Source: Actinomycetota bacterium (GTDB lineage: Bacteria; Actinomycetota; Acidimicrobiia; Acidimicrobiales; MedAcidi-G1). From it: a stretch of DNA of 33,049 nucleotides. The stretch spans positions 1 through 33,049 of the forward strand of contig JACNLA010000043.1 in NCBI GenBank assembly GCA_014381745.1, read 5' to 3'. Of this stretch, positions 9,139 to 23,415 are shown one piece after another (within the stretch, counting starts at the first letter, position 1; each line of letters opens with the position of its first letter). A program made the translations under genes and the position numbers. A model generated the notes under the pieces. The model was not told the DNA's origin. It made no database searches and was given only the letters and a program-made list of their open reading frames with translations.

Positions 9139-9144
9139 ACCCTA
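9139..9144 (-). promoter_or_regulatory. -10 box of rpe built on the aceK stop codon
   Basis: TAGGGT on the minus strand: the TAG is the aceK stop (9142-9144), and the box ends 7 nt before the rpe GTG. It supports a leaderless rpe transcript inside an apparent aceK-rpe operon. Confidence 0.55.
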
Positions 9145-10923
9145 GTCCGCTGCCTCGGTTGTCCGGCGACGAAATCGGAGGCGTTCGGGATACGGGTAGA
9201 AGTCCGGCAGGTCGCCGTGAGCCAGCTCTTCCTGCACCCCGCTCCAGTAGTCAGCTGTGAACAGGTCGCCGTGAACCTCGCAGAACTTCTCCCAGATCGA
9301 GTCCGGGACATCACGCGGGAACCGCATGAACGTCGGGAACTGTTCAGGGAAGACGTCGCCGGGTTCCACGGCGAACCAGACCTGAGAGGACATCTCCAGT
9401 TCGTGGTCGTCTGATTCGGGGATCACCCGGAACCTGCATTCCTCTAGCAGGGTCAACTCGTCGTAGTCGTAAAAGACCACGCTGCCGTGGCGGGTGACAC
9501 CGAAGTTCTTGGTGAACAGGTCGCCGGGGAACACGTTGGCGACAGCGAGGTCCTTGATGGCGGCGCCCCAGTCGAGTGCCGCTGCCTCGGCCTTGTCGGC
9601 CGACATCTCTCGCAGGTAGAGGTTCAACGGGTACACCTGCCGTTCCGTGTAGACGTGTTTGATCACGACCTGATCGCCCTTGACCCGTACAGATCCGGCA
9701 GCCTCAGATAGCAACTGCTCGAGCAGGTCCGGGTCGAACCTGTCCCGGTCGAACGAGAGGTTCTCGAACTCCTGGGCATCGACCATTCGGCCCACCCTGT
9801 CGTGGTTGTAGACGAGGTTGTAGCGCCGCATTACTGCATCGCGGGTGGTGTTCTTTGGTGGGTCGAAGTGGTCCTTGATGATTTTGAACACCACGTTGAA
9901 CGACACCAGGGTGAACACCGACATGACCATCCCGGGGGTTCCCCGTGCCAGCACGAACTTGTCGTTGGAGTTCTCCAGGTGCCGGTAGAGGGACCGGTAG
10001 AGGCTGGTCTTTCCGTGTTGGGGGAAGCCGATGGCGGTGTGTAGTTCGGCCAGGGACTTCATGGGCAGCAGCGACTTGAGAAAACCCACAAGTTCGGCCG
10101 GGTTGGGCCATTCCACGAAGAAGTAGGACCGGGTAAAGCTGAACAGGCGGCTGACCTGCAGCTCGGTCAGAAGCAGGCTGTCGACCCTCATTCCGTCGTC
10201 GCCATGAATGATCGGAAGGACAATCGGCGCAATTCGGTTGAGTTGCCTCAGGCGACCGATCAGGTAGGCGCCCTTGTTCCGGAAGAAGACCGGCTTGAGC
10301 ATGTCGACGCTGTCCACCTCGAGGCCGTCCCATGCCTCGAGGAGAAACGAGTCCAGCCTGGCGGCCACCCGCCTGGCGTCACCTTCAAGATCCACCCATG
10401 GGGCGTCAAACTCGTAGGACTCCAGAATCGACACGATCAGGGCGGCTGAGTCACGGGTGCGGGTCACGGATGTGAACATCTCAGCCGAGGCCTCACCGCG
10501 GGGCACGCTCGTGGCTCCGAACCAGCGGAGCTCCACATCGTTGTCCACGCCGATGGTTGTGAACACCCGTCGGGTTACAGAGTTGAAGTAGGTCTCGGCC
10601 AGCACCATGTCGGAGCGTTCGGCGATGCGGTGTTTGAAGTGCCCTCGTGCCGACCGCCACTCGCCGCGCCGGTCCGGTTGTTCTCCGAGGAGGTCCTCAA
10701 CGAGGCCGACGGTCTTCCAGACATGTTCGTTGTGGAGGTTGAGGCGTTCGGTTGCGTCGGCTTCCTGGAGGGACCACTCAAGTTTCTCGAAGTGGCTGCG
10801 GGCGCGCCTTGAGATGAGGTTGAAACCGGCTATGTAGTCAACGAAACCGGAGTGGATCGTGTCGGCGATTCGGCGTGCGGCTTCGGTTTCCTGAGAGTCC
10901 AAGTTGTGGCCCTCCAGGCCCAT
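9142..10923 (-). CDS. aceK: Isocitrate dehydrogenase kinase/phosphatase (AceK)
   Basis: 593 aa (E. coli AceK is 578). The AceK-specific run is clear: ARGTPGMVMSVFTLVSFN, then VFKIIKDHF, the HDRVGRMVDAQEFENL segment, VANVFPGDLFTKNFGVTRHG and VVFYDYDEL. Asp468 (in PGDLFTKNF) and Asp486 (in FYDYDE) line up with the kinase residues Asp457 and Asp475 of E. coli AceK, with identical spacing. The enzyme phosphorylates and dephosphorylates isocitrate dehydrogenase and so switches carbon between the TCA cycle and the glyoxylate shunt. No aceA, aceB or icd is nearby; downstream is rpe, and a divergent PLP gene starts 33 nt away. AceK is mainly proteobacterial, so its presence here is notable. ATG 10923 has no obvious promoter box. 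Confidence 0.93.
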   Translation of the reverse strand: MGLEGHNLDSQETEAARRIADTIHSGFVDYIAGFNLISRRARSHFEKLEWSLQEADATERLNLHNEHVWKTVGLVEDLLGEQPDRRGEWRSARGHFKHRIAERSDMVLAETYFNSVTRRVFTTIGVDNDVELRWFGATSVPRGEASAEMFTSVTRTRDSAALIVSILESYEFDAPWVDLEGDARRVAARLDSFLLEAWDGLEVDSVDMLKPVFFRNKGAYLIGRLRQLNRIAPIVLPIIHGDDGMRVDSLLLTELQVSRLFSFTRSYFFVEWPNPAELVGFLKSLLPMKSLAELHTAIGFPQHGKTSLYRSLYRHLENSNDKFVLARGTPGMVMSVFTLVSFNVVFKIIKDHFDPPKNTTRDAVMRRYNLVYNHDRVGRMVDAQEFENLSFDRDRFDPDLLEQLLSEAAGSVRVKGDQVVIKHVYTERQVYPLNLYLREMSADKAEAAALDWGAAIKDLAVANVFPGDLFTKNFGVTRHGSVVFYDYDELTLLEECRFRVIPESDDHELEMSSQVWFAVEPGDVFPEQFPTFMRFPRDVPDSIWEKFCEVHGDLFTADYWSGVQEELAHGDLPDFYPYPERLRFRRRTTEAAD

Positions 10924-10942
10924 CTGGCAGATACGACCCCAC

Positions 10943-10948
10943 TAGCGT
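10943..10948 (+). promoter_or_regulatory. -10 box of the SufS-like gene (leaderless)
   Basis: TAGCGT ends 8 nt before ATG 10957, inside the 33-nt divergent gap with aceK. Confidence 0.55.
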
Positions 10949-10956
10949 GCCCGAGG

Positions 10957-12129
10957 ATGACAGACCTAAGCGACATGAGGCGGCGATTTCCCGGTTTGGT
11001 CGGCGGTTGGAGCCGCTTTGACGGCCCGGCCGGCACCCAGGCGGTGGACGTCTCCATCGAGGCAATGGCCGAATGGCAGCGCAGCGGAAATAACGCCAAC
11101 AGCCATGGTGCATTCCCCGCGTCGCAGGCCTGTGATGCCCTGACCGAGCAGGTGAGCGGCACCGTCGGCGAGCTGCTTGGAGCAGATCCGGCCGGAATGG
11201 TCTTTGGCCCGAGCACCACAGCCAACATGATGGCCCTCACCCGGGCTATCGCCGCAGACCTGGTTCCCGGCGACGAGATCGTGTGCACGACCCTTGATCA
11301 TGATTCGAACGTGTCCCCGTGGCTGCTCGCTGCCCGCGACAGCGGTGCGACCGTGCGAATGGCCGAGATGGACCCCAGTACCGGTCGCCTAGGCGCAGAT
11401 GCGGTCATTGACCTGATCGGTACGTCAACCAGATGGGTGGCGGTGACCGGGGCCTCAAATGCCGTCGGAACGATTCCAGACACAGCGGCCGTCACCGCCG
11501 CCGCCCACGCTGTAGGCGCACGGGTGGTGGTCGACGGGGTGCACCTCACCCCGCATCGCCGAATCGACGTCGAGGCCATCGGCTGTGACGTGTTCACCAC
11601 CTCGTCGTACAAGTGGTACGGACCACACGCCGGGATCATGTGGGTCGAGCCGGACCTGCTCGACTCGCTTGCCGCCTACAAGGTGAGGCCTGCACCGGAC
11701 TCCGGGCCGGGGCGACTCGAGTACGGCACCCCCTCGTGGGAGGCCATGGCCGGAATCGACGCTGCCGCACGCTTTCTCCTGGACACGACCATGGATGCGA
11801 TCATCGAACACGAGGAATCCGTATTCGGACGCCTGCTGACCGGCCTGCACGAGATTCCCGGCGTGAGGGTGGTCGGCCCGGCAGATCTCGCTGACCGGGC
11901 CCCGACGACCATGTTCCTCGTCAATGGCTTCACGCCGTTACAGGTGGCCGGAAGGCTGGCCGATGAGAGGGTGGCGGTCTGGGACGGCCACAACTATGCG
12001 GTAGAGGCGATGGCGCCTTTCGGGTTGGATGCCGAGGCGGGAGCTGTTCGGGCCGGTGTGTGTGCCTACATCGGCGACGATGACGTGGACCGTCTCCTTG
12101 CTGCCGTGGACGCACTGGGCGGCGACTGA
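10957..12129 (+). CDS. Cysteine desulfurase-like PLP protein lacking the catalytic Cys
   Basis: 390 aa, class-V aminotransferase fold, resembling the VC1184-type cysteine desulfurase-like family. The PLP lysine is Lys219 in FTTSSYKWYGPHAG; VVVDGVHLTPHRRIDV supplies the cofactor-contacting Asp and His. In true desulfurases such as SufS the mobile loop reads GHHCA; here it is GHNYA, with Tyr347 in place of the cysteine. Other cysteines are not in this loop. Desulfuration is therefore unlikely by the normal route, whereas E. coli CsdB/SufS can act on selenocysteine without this Cys. The next gene, 46 nt downstream on the same strand, is selD, so a role as selenocysteine lyase or selenium donor is a reasonable inference. 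ATG 10957 is set by the TAGCGT box; the frame is open to 10852 but runs into aceK. Confidence 0.85.
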   Translation: MTDLSDMRRRFPGLVGGWSRFDGPAGTQAVDVSIEAMAEWQRSGNNANSHGAFPASQACDALTEQVSGTVGELLGADPAGMVFGPSTTANMMALTRAIAADLVPGDEIVCTTLDHDSNVSPWLLAARDSGATVRMAEMDPSTGRLGADAVIDLIGTSTRWVAVTGASNAVGTIPDTAAVTAAAHAVGARVVVDGVHLTPHRRIDVEAIGCDVFTTSSYKWYGPHAGIMWVEPDLLDSLAAYKVRPAPDSGPGRLEYGTPSWEAMAGIDAAARFLLDTTMDAIIEHEESVFGRLLTGLHEIPGVRVVGPADLADRAPTTMFLVNGFTPLQVAGRLADERVAVWDGHNYAVEAMAPFGLDAEAGAVRAGVCAYIGDDDVDRLLAAVDALGGD

Positions 12130-12149: not shown

Positions 12150-12179
12150 ATGATGCTCAGATCGAAAGGGGGTGGATGA
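12150..12179 (+). CDS. Possible 9-codon upstream ORF of selD
   Basis: ATG ATG CTC AGA TCG AAA GGG GGT GGA TGA encodes MMLRSKGGG. Its stop at 12177-12179 overlaps both candidate selD start codons (12176 and 12179), and its last codons form the purine-rich site AAAGGGGGTGG that would serve as the selD ribosome-binding site. Translation would couple the two frames. It may be chance; there is no conservation evidence available here. Confidence 0.25.
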   Translation: MMLRSKGGG

Positions 12180-13204
12180 TGCGACGACTTACACAGTTCA
12201 GTCACGGCGCTGGTTGAGGCTGCAAGCTCGCCCCCGGCGAGTTGGCGCACGTTGTGCGCCACCTGACCCCGGCAGACACCCCTGACCTTCTGGTTGGGAT
12301 GGACACCGGCGACGATGCCGCTGTCTGGCGGATCTCCGACGACAGGGCACTTGCCCTTACCGCCGACTTCATCACGCCCGTGGTCGACGATGCGCGCGCC
12401 TGGGGGCGTGTTGCAGCGGCCAACGCTGTCTCAGACATCTACGCCATGGGGGGCACGCCCCTGATGGCCCTCAACCTCGTGTGCTGGAACAGCGACGAAC
12501 TCTCGGCTGATCTGCTGGTCGAGGTACTTCAGGGTGCCCAGGAGATCGCCTCAGAGGCCGGCTTCGTGATTGCCGGTGGACACACCGTTGATGACCCTGA
12601 ACCCAAGTTCGGCCTGGCCGTCATGGGAGAGGTCCATCCCGACAGAATGCTCACCAACACGGGTTTCCGACCCGGAGATGCCCTGGTCCTCACCAAGCCA
12701 TTGGGGATTGGCGTTATCACCACCGCCATCAAGTCCGGAGATGCCCCGCCCGACGTCGTTGAGGCGGCAATGCAGTCCATGACACGCCTCAACGCCGATG
12801 CGGCAGCGGTCGCCGTCGCAGCCGGAGCAACCGGCGCAACAGACATCACGGGTTTCGGCCTGCTCGGACACCTCGGGAGGGTTGCAATCGAGTCAGCCGT
12901 CGACCTTTCAATCAGTGCGGCAGACGTTCCGCTGCTGCCGGGTGCCCGTGAGCTGGCCGAGGCCGGTTCGATGCCCGGCGGAAGTCGTCGCAACCTGGAA
13001 TGGGCCGACCAGATCCTCGACAGGGGAGACCTGTCTGACCTGGACGTGCTGCTCCTGGCTGATGCACAGACCTCGGGAGGCCTGGTGTTCTCAGCATCCC
13101 CGGCAGCTGCTTATGAAGCTGTTGCCCAGCTCGCCGCAACGGGCCACACGGCGGCCGTGATCGGCGAGGTGCTAGCTGGCACCGGCCGAATCCATCTGTC
13201 CTGA
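12176..13204 (+). CDS. selD: Selenophosphate synthetase SelD, a selenocysteine-containing selenoprotein
   Basis: 342 aa if the in-frame TGA at 12215-12217 is read as selenocysteine. Upstream of it the frame encodes RRLTQFSHGAG, then U, then GCKLAPGEL: the catalytic N-terminal loop of SelD, with Sec14 and Lys17 matching Cys17 and Lys20 of E. coli. Starting after the TGA (for example TTG 12242) would remove the active site. The rest is standard SelD: GDDAAVWRISDDRALALTADF metal/ATP site, NAVSDIYAMGGTPLMALNLV, GGHTVDDPEPKFGLAV, ATDITGFGLLGH and ADAQTSGGLVF. The enzyme makes selenophosphate from selenide and ATP for Sec-tRNA and selenouridine. ATG 12176 follows AAAGGGGG. Two hairpins just after the UGA include a SECIS candidate. 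It may share an operon with the Cys-less SufS-like gene. Confidence 0.95.
12227..12261 (+). promoter_or_regulatory. Candidate bacterial SECIS element of selD
   Basis: Two adjacent perfect hairpins follow the UGA. The first is CTCGCC-CCC-GGCGAG (12227-12241). The second is TGGCGCAC-GTT-GTGCGCCA (12243-12261), 8 bp with a 3-nt loop starting with G. There are 33 nt between the UGA and the second loop. As I recall, the bacterial SECIS consensus asks for a G in the first two loop positions and roughly 16-37 nt from the UGA; the second hairpin satisfies both. SelB binding is inferred. Confidence 0.65.
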
Positions 13205-18413: not shown

Positions 18414-19769
18414 GTGGACGGGACCGCACTGCGGGATCCGTCCCACACATCCTGCCGACCAAGCCCGCCCCGAGGTCCCGTGCCGAACGCCTTCAATCCT
18501 TCCGTGTCGGCAGCACTTCCCGGTTACCAGTGGTTGTCGGATCTCCGCATTGAGGCTGCTGAGGGTCTTGATGGCGTTGCCCCGCCGAGCGCCGACGAGG
18601 AGGTCTGGAGGTATTCGCGAATCAGAGACCTTGACCTTGAGCAGCTTGGGCCCCTCGTAAGCCAGGTTGAGTCAACTGGCCCGTCTGCCATCTGGCCGCA
18701 ACCGGGAACAACTGCAGCAACCCTCTTTCTGCGAAACGGTTGGCTCGAGGATGCAACAATCTCCGCCGAGGCCGAAGCACTGGGGGTGACGGTCGGACGG
18801 CTCTCAGACAACGAGAACGGTTCCAGGTATCTCGGCTCCGTTGAGGGCGCCCCCGCAGACCTTTTCGGCCACATGAACCGCGCCTTCGGACCGGAACCGT
18901 TGGCAGTGGTCGTTCCTGACGGGGTCCGGCTGGATGCACCGATCGTCATCCTCGTGCACACGGACGCCGATTCGGCAGCGGTGTTTCCGCGCCTGTTTGT
19001 GAGCTGTGGTGCCGACTCAGATGCCACCGTGGTGGAACAACACACATCAGCTGACGTCAGATCCATGGTCGCACCGGTGCTGGAGGCAGCCGTCGGAAAC
19101 GATGCCAGGTTGCGACACGGCCTAGTTCAGGATCTCGGTAAAGAGGTGTGGCAACTCTGCCACCAGACCTTCCAGGTCGGCCAGAATGCAACTCTGGATT
19201 CCTTCGTGGCCGGCATGGGTGGGTGTTATTCCCGAACACGAACCGACTGCCGTCTAATGGGCAGGGGAGGCCATGCCAGTCTCACCGCCGCCTACCACGG
19301 AGAGGGCGAGCAGACCCACGACTTCCGGACCTTCCAGGAACACGTCGCACCGGACACGACCTCTGAACTCCTGTTCAAGGGAGCCCTCGACGGCGCATCC
19401 AACTCCGTCTATTCGGGTCTCATCCGGGTGCACCCTGAGGCGGTTCGCACCCGCGCCTACCAGACCAACAGGAACATCAAGCTGTCGCCCGACGCATGGG
19501 CACAGAGCGTTCCCAACCTCGAGATAGAGACCGATGACGTGATGTGCAGCCATGCCTCGACCGTGTCGCCGGTGGACCAGGATCAACTCTTCTATCTGGA
19601 GAGCCGAGGGGTACCCACCACGATCGCCGAGAGGCTTCTGGTGGAGGGATTCTTCGGAGAGGTCATCGACCGGGCCCCGACAGCGGCTGTTGGTGAAGCA
19701 CTTCGGAGTGTTCTGGTGGAGCGCCTGGATCGACGCTTACGTAACGCCGTTGCGGGTGAAGCGGCATGA
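18414..19769 (+). CDS. sufD: Fe-S cluster assembly scaffold protein SufD
   Basis: 451 aa from GTG 18414, or 429 from GTG 18480. The beta-helix SufB/SufD family is clear; it is SufD rather than SufB because of EEVWRYSRI near the N terminus and CSHASTVSPVDQDQLFYLESRG near the C terminus (His380, matching the essential His of E. coli SufD; SufB has VEHEATTS there). SufD acts with SufB and the ATPase SufC to build and pass on clusters. No sufB is in the window. The leaderless promoter inside the dyad points to GTG 18414, although the first 22 residues look unlike the family, so 18480 remains possible with a 66-nt leader. The stop overlaps the next start as ATGA. Confidence 0.92.
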   Translation: MDGTALRDPSHTSCRPSPPRGPVPNAFNPSVSAALPGYQWLSDLRIEAAEGLDGVAPPSADEEVWRYSRIRDLDLEQLGPLVSQVESTGPSAIWPQPGTTAATLFLRNGWLEDATISAEAEALGVTVGRLSDNENGSRYLGSVEGAPADLFGHMNRAFGPEPLAVVVPDGVRLDAPIVILVHTDADSAAVFPRLFVSCGADSDATVVEQHTSADVRSMVAPVLEAAVGNDARLRHGLVQDLGKEVWQLCHQTFQVGQNATLDSFVAGMGGCYSRTRTDCRLMGRGGHASLTAAYHGEGEQTHDFRTFQEHVAPDTTSELLFKGALDGASNSVYSGLIRVHPEAVRTRAYQTNRNIKLSPDAWAQSVPNLEIETDDVMCSHASTVSPVDQDQLFYLESRGVPTTIAERLLVEGFFGEVIDRAPTAAVGEALRSVLVERLDRRLRNAVAGEAA

Positions 19770-20080
19770 GCAGCGTCCGCGTCTGTTCTCTGGCAGACCT
19801 TCCAGACGGGACGGCCCGCAAGGTCGACGTCGACGGTGAGCCGGTGGCGTTGGTCCGGATCGGCGAGCGGATCATGGCGGTGGCCGACACGTGCAGCCAC
19901 GCCGAGGTATCCCTCTCAGAGGGCGAGGTCGTGGTCGATGAATGCGCAATCGAGTGTTGGAAGCACGGCAGCCTCTTCTCGTTGGAGACCGGCGAGGCCC
20001 TGACCCTGCCGGCCACGCAGCCGGTGATCGTGTTCACTGCACGCATCGAGGGTGACGACATCATGGTGGATGAGCGATGA
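19766..20080 (+). CDS. Rieske-type [2Fe-2S] ferredoxin in the suf unit
   Basis: 104 aa soluble Rieske domain. The ligand motifs are C-x-H (Cys43, His45 in DTCSHAEVSL) and C-x-x-H (Cys64, His67 in IECWKHGSLF), as in the small ferredoxins of bacterial dioxygenases. No membrane anchor or signal peptide is seen. It overlaps sufD and sufC by ATGA on both sides, so all three are translated together; a job as electron donor or cluster acceptor in SUF assembly is inferred from that. Confidence 0.92.
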   Translation: MSSVRVCSLADLPDGTARKVDVDGEPVALVRIGERIMAVADTCSHAEVSLSEGEVVVDECAIECWKHGSLFSLETGEALTLPATQPVIVFTARIEGDDIMVDER

Positions 20081-20886
20081 CCGTCGACCGGGTGCTCCGA
20101 ATAGAAGGACTCTGCGCCAAGGCCGGCGACACACACATCCTGAGCGGCATCGACCTTGAGATTCGTCCCGGTGAGGTCCACGCAGTGATGGGGCCCAATG
20201 GATCTGGAAAGTCCACCCTTTCGCATGTCCTGATGGGCAGGCCCGGTTACGAGGTGACGGCCGGCTCGGCAACCCTTGATGGTACGGACCTGTTGACGCT
20301 CGCTCCATGGGAGAGGGCACAGGCGGGCCTGTTCCTGGCCCTCCAGCATCCGACCGAGGTGCCAGGTGTGAGCCTGGAGTCGATGCTGGTAGAGGCGGCA
20401 CGGGCCGGCAACCGGGACACGACCGGAGTCCGGGAATCGCTGGTCGCCGAGGCCGAGAGGATCGGATTCGATGAAAAGTTCCTGGATCGACCCGTGAACG
20501 TGGACCTCTCGGGTGGTGAGAAGAAGCGGAACGAGGCCCTCCAACTATCGGTGATCCGACCCCTCTACGCGGTTCTGGATGAGATCGACTCGGGCCTGGA
20601 CGTGGATGCGCTGGCGGCAGTGGCCAGGCGCGTTCAGGACGCCACGGATGAGACAGGGCTGGGGGTGCTGGTGATCACGCACTTCAGTCGCCTGCTCGAG
20701 GTGCTCGAGCCAGATCGCGTACACGTGCTCTCCAATGGGCGGATTCACACCTCGGGAGGACCCGAGTTGGCTGAACGGCTCGAAGCCGAGGGCTATGTGG
20801 GAATCCTCGGGGAGTCAGCTGCCGCACCAGAGGTGGCTGTAAGCCTGGGTCTGGGCGAGGACCCGTTCGCCGACCCTCTGGCCTAG
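20077..20886 (+). CDS. sufC: SufC-type ATPase, first copy
   Basis: 269 aa ABC ATPase. Walker A GPNGSGKST at 39-47, Q loop in FLALQHPTEVPGVSLESML, signature LSGGEKKRNEALQ at 144-156 (the GGEKKRNE form is diagnostic of SufC), Walker B LYAVLDEIDSGLDVDAL and switch histidine in VLVITHFSRLL. It would power the SufBCD scaffold. A tail of about 20 residues after EGYVGILG is longer than usual. It ends the sufD-Rieske-sufC unit and stops 1 nt from the end of the convergent sufU. It differs substantially from the second sufC at 22654-23415. Confidence 0.93.
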   Translation: MTVDRVLRIEGLCAKAGDTHILSGIDLEIRPGEVHAVMGPNGSGKSTLSHVLMGRPGYEVTAGSATLDGTDLLTLAPWERAQAGLFLALQHPTEVPGVSLESMLVEAARAGNRDTTGVRESLVAEAERIGFDEKFLDRPVNVDLSGGEKKRNEALQLSVIRPLYAVLDEIDSGLDVDALAAVARRVQDATDETGLGVLVITHFSRLLEVLEPDRVHVLSNGRIHTSGGPELAERLEAEGYVGILGESAAAPEVAVSLGLGEDPFADPLA

Positions 20887-20887
20887 G

Positions 20888-21361
20888 TCAGCTGGCGGAA
20901 GCCGATTCGTTGAGGCCCTGATCAAGCGTGTTCCAGGCCAGCGTGGCGCACTTGATGCGAACTGGGAACTTCACCACCCCGCGCAGGGCCTCGAGGTCTC
21001 CGAGACCGACCGCAGGCTCCTGTGCCTCACCGGTGCTGTCTCCGCCGAGGTCGTCGCCGTGGATGGACATCATCGCCTTGAACGCCCTGATCACCTGATG
21101 GGCCTCATCGACGGTCTTGCCCATCACCGCCGTCGTCATCATGGAGGCTGACGACTGGCTGATCGAGCAGCCCTGGCCCGAGATGCTGACGTCGCGGATC
21201 GTGTCGTCGTCGACATGCAGGAACACCTGGATCTCGTCGCCGCACAGCGGGTTGAAACCCTCGGCCATGTGGGCGGGCGGGGTTTCCAGCTCGCCACGGT
21301 TTCGCGGGTTGCGGTAATGGTCGAGGATGATTTCCCTGTAGAGGTCTTCTAGTCCTGCCAC
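20888..21361 (-). CDS. sufU: SufU sulfur-transfer protein
   Basis: 157 aa, IscU-like fold of the SufU type. Zinc/sulfur ligands are Cys40 and Asp42 (NPLCGDE), Cys65 (GQGCSIS) and Cys138 (IKCATLAWN); the insert of about 18-20 residues between the last two, typical of SufU and absent in IscU, is present. SufU takes sulfur from SufS. GTG 21361 has GGAG 7 nt upstream. It is the last gene of sufC-sufS-sufU, 27 nt after sufS. Confidence 0.94.
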   Translation of the reverse strand: MAGLEDLYREIILDHYRNPRNRGELETPPAHMAEGFNPLCGDEIQVFLHVDDDTIRDVSISGQGCSISQSSASMMTTAVMGKTVDEAHQVIRAFKAMMSIHGDDLGGDSTGEAQEPAVGLGDLEALRGVVKFPVRIKCATLAWNTLDQGLNESASAS

Positions 21362-21388
21362 TTTGCTGCTCCAGGGTTCGGTGGGGGG

Positions 21389-22657
21389 TCAGTCCGGTTG
21401 GTGGGAGAAGAAATCGCCGGCTTCTGCCAGCCCGTCCGACAGTAGGTCCACGTCGGATTCATCGTTGTATATGTAGAGGGAGGCCCGTGCAGTTGCACCC
21501 ACGCCGAGCAGCTTCATGAGCGGCTTGGCACAGTGGTGGCCGGCCCTCACGCAGATGCCACGTTGGTCGAGCACCTGGCTGAGGTCGTGAGGGTGGACGT
21601 CTCTGTAGCAGATGGACAGGACCCCTCCCCGTTTGGTGGTGTCGACAGGGCCGTGGATTATCAGATCATCGCCGTGGCGTTCCCTGAGGGTTCGAAGCGC
21701 GTAGTCGGTGAGCGCCACCTCGTGGGCACGTACGGCGTCCATTCCGATGGCCTCGAGGTATGTGATGGCAGAGCCGAGGCCGATGATCTCGGCGATTGGT
21801 GGGGTGCCTGCCTCGAACTTCCACGGCAGCTCGTTTGGGACGAAGCCTTCACGGGTGACGTTCAGGATCATCTCGCCGCCACCCAGGAACGGGGGCATTG
21901 CATCAAGCAGTTCGGTACGTCCCCAGAGCACCCCGACTCCCGTGGGCCCGCACATTTTGTGGCCGGTGAAGGCCATGAAGTCGCAGTCCCATTCGGTCAC
22001 GTCGGTCGGCATGTGGGGTACGGCCTGGCTGGCGTCGACCAGGCAGAGGGCACCTGCGCCGTGGGCGGCGTCGGCCAGTTGGCGTACCGGTGTGAGCGTT
22101 CCGAGCACGTTCGATGCGGCTGAGAAGGCAAAGAGGCTGACCCCGTCGAGCATCTGGTCCAGGTCCGTGAGGTCCAGTCGGCCGTCGTCTGTGAGGGGCA
22201 GCCAGCGGATCTCGACACCACGCTCAGCGGCCAACTGCTGCCAGGGCACGATGTTGGCGTGGTGTTCGAGGGCGGTGATGAGGATTGCGTCGCCTTCAGT
22301 CAGGTTGGCCCGTCCCCACGAATAGGCGACGAGATTTATGGCCTCAGTAGCGTTCTTGGTGAAGATGATCTCGCTGCTTGACGGTGCGCCTATGAACCGT
22401 TGAACGGCTTCTCTGGCGTCCTCCATGGCTGAGGTGGCCTGTTCGGCGATGTGGTAGGCGCCACGGTGAACGTTGGCGTTGATTTCCTCGTAGTACCGAT
22501 CGAGGGTGTCGAGCACCTGGCGGGGTTTCTGTGAGGTGGCGCCAGAGTCCAGGTACACGATCGGCTGGCCGTTGACCTCCTGTTTCAGCAGCGGGAAGTC
22601 TGCCTTTATGGCGGCAGTGTCGAGAGACATGTCGATGCTGTCAGGGGGAGGGGTCAT
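21389..22657 (-). CDS. sufS: Cysteine desulfurase SufS
   Basis: 422 aa group-II desulfurase. PLP lysine Lys234 in FTGHKMCGPTG, cofactor His in ALEHHANIVPWQ and catalytic Cys376 in RAGHHCAKPL are all present, in contrast to the SufS-like protein at 10957-12129. It releases sulfur from cysteine as a persulfide and hands it to SufU. The ATG overlaps the sufC stop by 4 nt (ATGA), so expression is coupled. Confidence 0.96.
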   Translation of the reverse strand: MTPPPDSIDMSLDTAAIKADFPLLKQEVNGQPIVYLDSGATSQKPRQVLDTLDRYYEEINANVHRGAYHIAEQATSAMEDAREAVQRFIGAPSSSEIIFTKNATEAINLVAYSWGRANLTEGDAILITALEHHANIVPWQQLAAERGVEIRWLPLTDDGRLDLTDLDQMLDGVSLFAFSAASNVLGTLTPVRQLADAAHGAGALCLVDASQAVPHMPTDVTEWDCDFMAFTGHKMCGPTGVGVLWGRTELLDAMPPFLGGGEMILNVTREGFVPNELPWKFEAGTPPIAEIIGLGSAITYLEAIGMDAVRAHEVALTDYALRTLRERHGDDLIIHGPVDTTKRGGVLSICYRDVHPHDLSQVLDQRGICVRAGHHCAKPLMKLLGVGATARASLYIYNDESDVDLLSDGLAEAGDFFSHQPD

Positions 22658-23415
22658 CGGAACGCCTCGTAGCCGTCCCTTTCGAGGCGTTCGGCGATCT
22701 CGGCTCCGCCCTGTTCGACTATCTGGCCGTTCACGAGGATGTGGACGACGTCGGGCTCCAGGTGGCGTAGCAACCTCTGGTAGTGGGTGATTGCCAGAAC
22801 GCCCAGATCGGGTCGTGCAGCACGCACCTCTGAGACACCGTTGGCGACCACCTCGAGTGCGTCGATGTCGAGGCCGGAGTCGGTTTCGTCAAGGATTGCC
22901 ATCTCGGGTTCGAGGATGGCCATCTGCAGGATCTCGTTGCGCTTTTTCTCGCCGCCTGAGAACCCCTCGTTTACGTACCGGTCGGCGAATGCCGGGTCCA
23001 TGCCGAGACGGTCCATCCAGTCCATTATCGCCAGGCGCAGCTCAAGCACCGACAGGTCTATTCCCTTTCGGGCCGACAGGGCCTGGCGCAGGAAGTTGAT
23101 GACCGATACGCCGGCTATCTCCAGTGGGTACTGGAAGGCCAGGAAGATGCCCGCCTTGCCGCGCACATCGGTGGACCAGTCCGTGATGTTGTCGCCACGG
23201 AAGCGGACCGAGCCTTCGGTCACCAGGTATTCGGGGCTTCCGAGCAGAACCGATGCGAGGGTCGACTTGCCTGAACCGTTGGGTCCCATGAGGGCATGAA
23301 CCTCGCCGGCGCCGACCACCAGATCGACTCCCCGCAGGATTGGCGTGCCATCGACGGTTGAGGCATGCAGGTTCGATATCTCGAACAGGGGGGTGGTGTC
23401 TGCTCCTGAACTCAT
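22654..23415 (-). CDS. sufC: SufC-type ATPase, second copy
   Basis: 253 aa, canonical SufC length. Walker A GPNGSGKST at 44-52, FLAFQYPLEIAGVSVINFLR Q loop, FSGGEKKRNEILQMA signature, MAILDETDSGLDIDAL Walker B and ITHYQRLLRHL switch His. It heads sufC-sufS-sufU. ATG 23415 has TAGGCT 6 nt upstream. Of the two copies it looks the more typical; which one serves SufB/SufD cannot be told from sequence alone. Confidence 0.94.
   Translation of the reverse strand: MSSGADTTPLFEISNLHASTVDGTPILRGVDLVVGAGEVHALMGPNGSGKSTLASVLLGSPEYLVTEGSVRFRGDNITDWSTDVRGKAGIFLAFQYPLEIAGVSVINFLRQALSARKGIDLSVLELRLAIMDWMDRLGMDPAFADRYVNEGFSGGEKKRNEILQMAILEPEMAILDETDSGLDIDALEVVANGVSEVRAARPDLGVLAITHYQRLLRHLEPDVVHILVNGQIVEQGGAEIAERLERDGYEAFR

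Follow-up and report, generated by a model that had tools for sequence, protein, structure and literature searches.

Organization of the selD locus

The window analyzed here, by which we mean the whole 33,049-nt stretch of DNA, contains a selD gene preceded by a cysteine desulfurase-like gene, and the features that bear on selD expression are as follows.

10852..12129, plus strand: cysteine desulfurase-like gene adjoining selD, candidate selenium donor (TIGR01976, 365.3 bits; cut-off, 352.35)
12166..12172, plus strand: Shine-Dalgarno-like purine-rich stretch AAAGGGGG, 5' of the ATG codons (from sequence)
12176..13204, plus strand: selD, selenophosphate synthetase with predicted selenocysteine (Sec) (matches to TIGR00476 and PDB 3u0o)
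12215-12217, plus strand: in-frame TGA, predicted Sec codon at the catalytic position (aligned to the Cys of 3u0o)
12224..12226, plus strand: catalytic Lys codon AAG, three residues past Sec (HGAGUGCK; K invariant in the alignment)
12227-12241, plus strand: helix 1, UGA-proximal hairpin (CTCGCC-CCC-GGCGAG) with a proposed spacer role (fold, pairing, covariation)
12243-12261, plus strand: helix 2, putative SECIS hairpin TGGCGCAC-GTT-GTGCGCCA with a G-U apical loop (pairing, covariation, loop invariance)

The selD product, scored with a C placed at the UGA position, matched TIGR00476 with 374.6 bits (cut-off, 125) over profile positions 1 to 310 of 311, and its best match in the PDB was 3u0o, a selenide, water dikinase (E = 2e-76). 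The enzyme is accordingly predicted from its sequence to make selenophosphate from selenide and ATP. The TGA at 12215-12217 shares its frame with two ATG codons, at 12176 and 12179, and with the SelD open reading frame, which ends at the stop codon 13202-13204; from these ATG codons the frame reads (M)MRRLTQFSHGAG-TGA-GCKLAPGELAHVVRHL. Residue-by-residue alignment placed the TGA opposite the first Cys of HGAGCGCK in 3u0o, and in the motif RLTQFSHGAG-U-GCK the U aligned with Cys17 of E. coli SelD, confirming the original prediction of an in-frame UGA at the catalytic position. The N-terminal loop keeps the three-residue spacing between the catalytic Cys/Sec and Lys that the SelD family requires, as had also been proposed, but the accompanying numbering (Sec14/Lys17) probably needs revision. 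In four genus relatives (L031, L035, L042, and L044), the first ATG position reads ACC and the second reads ATG, so that translation more likely starts at ATG 12179 than at ATG 12176, which would make the residue Sec13. The Shine-Dalgarno-like stretch is kept as cgaaagggggtgg in genus relatives.

The association of the cysteine desulfurase-like gene with selD makes its product a candidate selenium donor to SelD. Genes of pfam00266, or cysteine desulfurase-like genes, have been noted near (orphan) selD before (PMC5029168).

Conservation of the in-frame UGA

A TGA lay inside the gene in all 43 full-length SelDs of the same taxonomic family, and in each of the 30 family loci that were read it occupied the same codon. 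TGC in relatives, named at the outset as a sign of sequencing error, occurred in none of these 43 genes. Upstream of the TGA, the columns of the 30 loci had mean entropies of 0.12 bits at first, 0.08 bits at second, and 0.88 bits at third codon positions, and this third-position-biased change indicates that the stretch before the TGA is translated. Synonymous-biased change flanks the TGA on both sides in family SelDs. Downstream, most relatives have CTG where the window has TTG 12242, so that a start at this codon is not conserved.

TGA forms were common among class- and phylum-wide SelDs, and Cys forms were also present: the 173 SelD genes aligned at the Sec site comprised 94 with TGA, 52 with TGC, and 27 with TGT, many of the Cys forms stemming from other phyla. 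The named relatives of this SelD belong to Acidimicrobiales and related Actinomycetota, the closest being that of JAAZXC010000051.1 (Acidimicrobiales bacterium bin111s; 77%) and others including those of MedAcidi-G2B and MED-G01, from which we assign the organism presumptively to the class Acidimicrobiia.

Within Pseudonocardia, we observed a Sec-SelD with the hairpin present (L134) and Cys-SelDs without it (L132, L136, L137, L138, and L140), a mix that could reflect a recent switch or a transfer. Such Cys-SelDs of related actinobacteria share the enzyme and the motif with the SelD described here but carry a Cys codon (TGC or TGT) in place of the TGA and keep neither of its two hairpins.

A SECIS hairpin conserved with the UGA

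Folded alone, helix 2 forms 8 bp at -13.0 kcal/mol (z = -3.8), and 1 of 200 shuffles was equally stable. This 8-bp hairpin with a GTT loop had been placed 33 nt after the UGA; the hairpin stands as described, and the 33 nt proved to be the distance to its apical loop, the stem beginning after 25 nt. Rules given for bacterial SECIS elements call for a loop of 3 to 9 nt and an upper stem of 4 to 16 bp; a G within the first two loop positions, often as G[G/U]; a UGA-to-apical-loop distance of 16 to 37 nt; and a minimum free energy at or below -7.5 kcal/mol (PMC13188914). Helix 2 agrees with all four (3-nt loop, 8-bp stem, G first, 33 nt, -13.0 kcal/mol), in line with the fit to the bacterial SECIS rule that was originally predicted.

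Comparative analysis of 85 distinct TGA forms revealed that 91% of helix 2 cells were paired and that 51 cells had changed on both sides, compared with 14.5 in shuffles; the covariation value was 0.278, as opposed to 0.114 in shuffled and 0.022 to 0.111 in slid controls. On a tree built from the remainder of the selD gene, 18 compensatory double changes mapped to helix 2, compared with 0 to 3 in controls in which the partner was slid by 1 to 6 bases. Loop positions G37 and U38 were invariant in the 85 sequences, and the loop read GTN in 94 of 94. The same columns in 38 Cys-SelDs of related bacteria, controls drawn partly from different clades, were 38% paired with no excess over shuffles. Furthermore, with the loop position fixed, the stem averaged 6.3 bp in TGA forms, compared with 2.3 bp in synonymous-codon shuffles and 0.75 bp in Cys forms, and within one family (f34) it spanned 4 to 7 bp in TGA forms and 0 to 1 bp in Cys forms. 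The contrasts with Cys forms and with synonymous shuffles tie helix 2 to the UGA and not to the protein sequence alone. We infer that helix 2 is bound by SelB. Distal hairpins were weak in some Sec-SelDs (L112-L114, L142, L143, and L146).

A second hairpin between the UGA and the SECIS element

Helix 1, which the original prediction had overlooked, sits between the UGA and the SECIS hairpin, immediately 5' of helix 2. Its cells were 86% paired in the 85 TGA forms as opposed to 46.5% in Cys forms, and 8 compensatory double changes mapped to it on the tree, compared with 0 to 3 in the slid controls. The helix 1 loop reads CCN in 84 of 94 sequences and thus mostly lacks the G typical of SelB elements. 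The sequences had 5.2 pairs in helix 1 against 4.0 expected from shuffling of synonymous codons, and a median of 18% of shuffles per sequence were as good; this test is weak because the amino acids already favor pairing. With helix 1 largely dictated by amino acids, the case for it comes from covariation and the contrast with Cys forms, which support helix 1 as a structure.

Subtracting the 15 nt of helix 1 from the 33 nt between the SelD UGA and the loop of helix 2 leaves 18 nt. Counted by eye, the UGA-to-apical-loop distance is likewise 18 nt in the formate dehydrogenase gene (FdhA) and in one AhpD-like gene of this genome, and it is 24 nt in the other AhpD-like gene; in E. coli fdhF, folded for comparison, the distance is 18 nt. 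The agreement of the remaining 18 nt with FdhA, one AhpD-like gene, and fdhF suggests that helix 1 is a folded spacer that holds the working distance. The SECIS elements of fdhF and of the genome's own FdhA are small hairpins with G-U-rich loops, like helix 2, and SelD matches their 18 nt if helix 1 is treated as folded. Unlike SelD, however, both fdhF and FdhA have 11 nt between the UGA and the hairpin and no other hairpin in between. Compared with the bacterial SECIS consensus (the bSECISearch model, per PMC13188914), all four rules of which are shared by helix 2, SelD adds, between the UGA and the SECIS, another hairpin that covaries and has a CCN loop.

The Sec-SelDs of other actinobacterial classes and of Clostridia that we examined mostly had one proximal G-loop hairpin, with the loop at about 16 to 20 nt. 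Acidimicrobiia had the distal layout, as did some Bacilli (Alkalibacillus L165 and Cytobacillus L271) and some other actinobacteria (L250-L252 and L270). In two SelDs of other actinobacterial families (L221 and L263), a proximal hairpin and a distal one were present together, each with a G-containing loop, and these genes are possible intermediates between two SECIS layouts. We tentatively propose, at slightly under even odds, that Sec-SelD genes come in two layouts, either a proximal G-loop hairpin or a distal hairpin together with a nonrecognized spacer hairpin that restores the 18 nt. Helix 1 could instead have no spacer role and be a decayed proximal SECIS or a by-product of coding, with helix 2 alone mattering. 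Helix 1 occupies the same place as the single proximal G-loop hairpin of most other actinobacterial Sec-SelDs examined, and its weak result in the synonymous-codon test also suits this account, yet helix 1 still covaries despite a loop that is CCN in most sequences and fails the G rule; we regard the account as a serious contender that is nevertheless rather more probably wrong than right. If the two-layout proposal is true, bacterial SECIS elements would include a spacer-hairpin class, and the wide spread of their spacings (16 to 37 nt) would be accounted for in part. The covarying helix 1 thereby offers a testable answer to how SECIS spacing can be wide despite SelB reaching one fixed A site. 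A full-text literature search returned nothing useful on a two-hairpin layout or on the spacing of bacterial SECIS elements.

Selenocysteine machinery and other selenoprotein genes

The genome is a 2.19-Mb draft assembly of 44 contigs that is 95.9% complete. The selA, selB, and tRNA-Sec genes expected elsewhere in the genome were all found on one contig (C16). The selA (394.5 bits) and selB (260.1 bits) genes are adjacent, and SelB has elongation-factor domains and a C-terminal SelB winged-helix domain. The tRNA-Sec, with anticodon UCA, scored 67.5 bits against a cut-off of 47 and was also called by ARAGORN. Thus, selD shows the hallmarks of a bacterial selenoprotein gene: a UGA at a Cys position kept in relatives and SelA, SelB, and tRNA-Sec encoded in the genome.

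The expectation of further selenoproteins was likewise borne out, as at least three more UGA-interrupted genes were detected, encoding FdhA and two AhpD-like proteins; these genes were sought family by family, and the counts are lower bounds. In FdhA, on contig C37, the UGA lies in SCNRT-U-HAPSVVGL, at the known Sec site of FdhA. The Sec-containing alpha subunit seems to be split (L212 and L217; G000:C37:3103-4968 and C37:442-591, both on the minus strand), and the N-terminal iron-sulfur part of FdhA matches a separate frame beyond a NuoE/F-like gene. The two AhpD-like genes (PF02627), on contigs C6 and C22, have their UGA in CHY-U and CFY-U.

G000:C6:53026-53244, plus strand: AhpD-like gene L275, in-frame TGA in CxxU motif
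G000:C22:324243-324368, minus strand: AhpD-like gene L276, in-frame TGA in CxxU motif

G-loop hairpins were present 3' of the TGA in both genes, which probably encode further selenoproteins. The CxxU pattern is known for AhpD-like selenoproteins of marine metagenomes (PMC2398784). With at least four selenoprotein genes, this genome is now available for correct annotation.

When the SelD SECIS was cast as a covariance model and searched against its own genome, only SelD was significant (next match, E = 0.44), and the model thus did not reveal the other selenoproteins. Neither the window nor the 30 kb around selAB yielded another convincing case when scanned, with a crude coding-bias filter, for frames interrupted by TGA. 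A family search of the genome did not find ybbB, so that a selenouridine trait is unsupported.

A model for Sec incorporation into SelD

The conserved UGA, the Sec machinery, the further selenoprotein genes, and the covarying hairpin together support the prediction that SelD is a selenoprotein. We consider it very probable (about 0.96) that selD encodes a selenophosphate synthetase with a catalytic Sec at UGA 12215-12217, decoded via SelB on helix 2, and we predict that Sec is present in the SelD protein. In our model, SelB carrying Sec-tRNA-Sec would be held on the G-U loop of helix 2 as the UGA reaches the ribosomal A site, helix 1 would fold away to put the SelB loop at an effective 18 nt from the UGA, and Sec would be inserted in place of termination. 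The selenophosphate produced by SelD would in turn feed SelA for Sec-tRNA-Sec synthesis. Since SelA needs selenophosphate from SelD, SelD would depend on its own product.

Other explanations of the TGA fare poorly against these data. Were UGA read through by ordinary suppression or under a reassigned code, without Sec, the complete Sec machinery, the location of the UGA at known Sec sites in all other UGA genes found, and the conservation of the G-loop hairpin only with UGA would all be unaccounted for; we found no evidence that supports such readthrough and judge it highly unlikely. Code reassignment in particular was rejected, as UGA is also the genuine stop at the 3' end of this selD and of the selD of many relatives. 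Even less credible is that translation of SelD begins exclusively at the internal TTG 12242 or at another downstream start, with the upstream frame a relic. Automated calls had been predicted to start at this TTG, and a mechanical open reading frame caller does begin there in this window, although the public annotation of one Bacilli Sec-SelD includes the N-terminus before the TGA. A product begun at the TTG would lose the catalytic Cys/Sec and Lys, and the invariant catalytic motif lies upstream of this codon amid mainly third-position changes in the 30 relatives, most of which have CTG in place of the TTG. The draft state of the 44-contig assembly could favor a sequencing or assembly error, or a pseudogene, but the 43 of 43 full-length family SelDs with TGA come from other assemblies, many more TGA forms exist in the class, and the remaining frame is intact and conserved, so that we assign this explanation a negligible chance. 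Conservation of the TGA and translation of the stretch upstream of it thus lead us to reject error, decay, and an internal start alike, in favor of Sec insertion at the UGA.

Sec-containing SelD has been described in bacteria (PMC4561486, PMC13188914, and PMC2398784) and forms a long-known, widespread selenoprotein family, as the original prediction acknowledged for some bacteria. Known bacterial Sec-SelDs resemble the one described here in having Sec at the same catalytic-loop site, a SECIS just 3' of it, and Sec machinery in the genome. The difference lies in the fixation of the Sec form throughout an Acidimicrobiia family. None of the papers covered by our literature search dealt with selenocysteine and selenoproteins in Acidimicrobiia, although such work may exist outside them. 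The Sec-SelD gene itself is therefore of a kind already known, and the two-hairpin layout would be a new SECIS variant if its function were shown. As judged from sequence, the enzyme that activates selenium is encoded in selenoprotein form throughout this actinobacterial family, and selenium supply would consequently feed back on the cell's own selenium machinery.

Other genes in the window

A full-length gene for an AceK-type isocitrate dehydrogenase kinase/phosphatase, an enzyme typical of Proteobacteria, lies at 9142-10923 on the minus strand (NF002804, 653 bits; cut-off, 488). By eye, we also recognized a SUF iron-sulfur cluster at 18414-23415 in which one SufC-like ATPase gene lies on the plus strand (20077-20886) and another on the minus strand (22654-23415). 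A tmRNA gene with the tag ANTDDLALAA occupies positions 1-387 on the minus strand.
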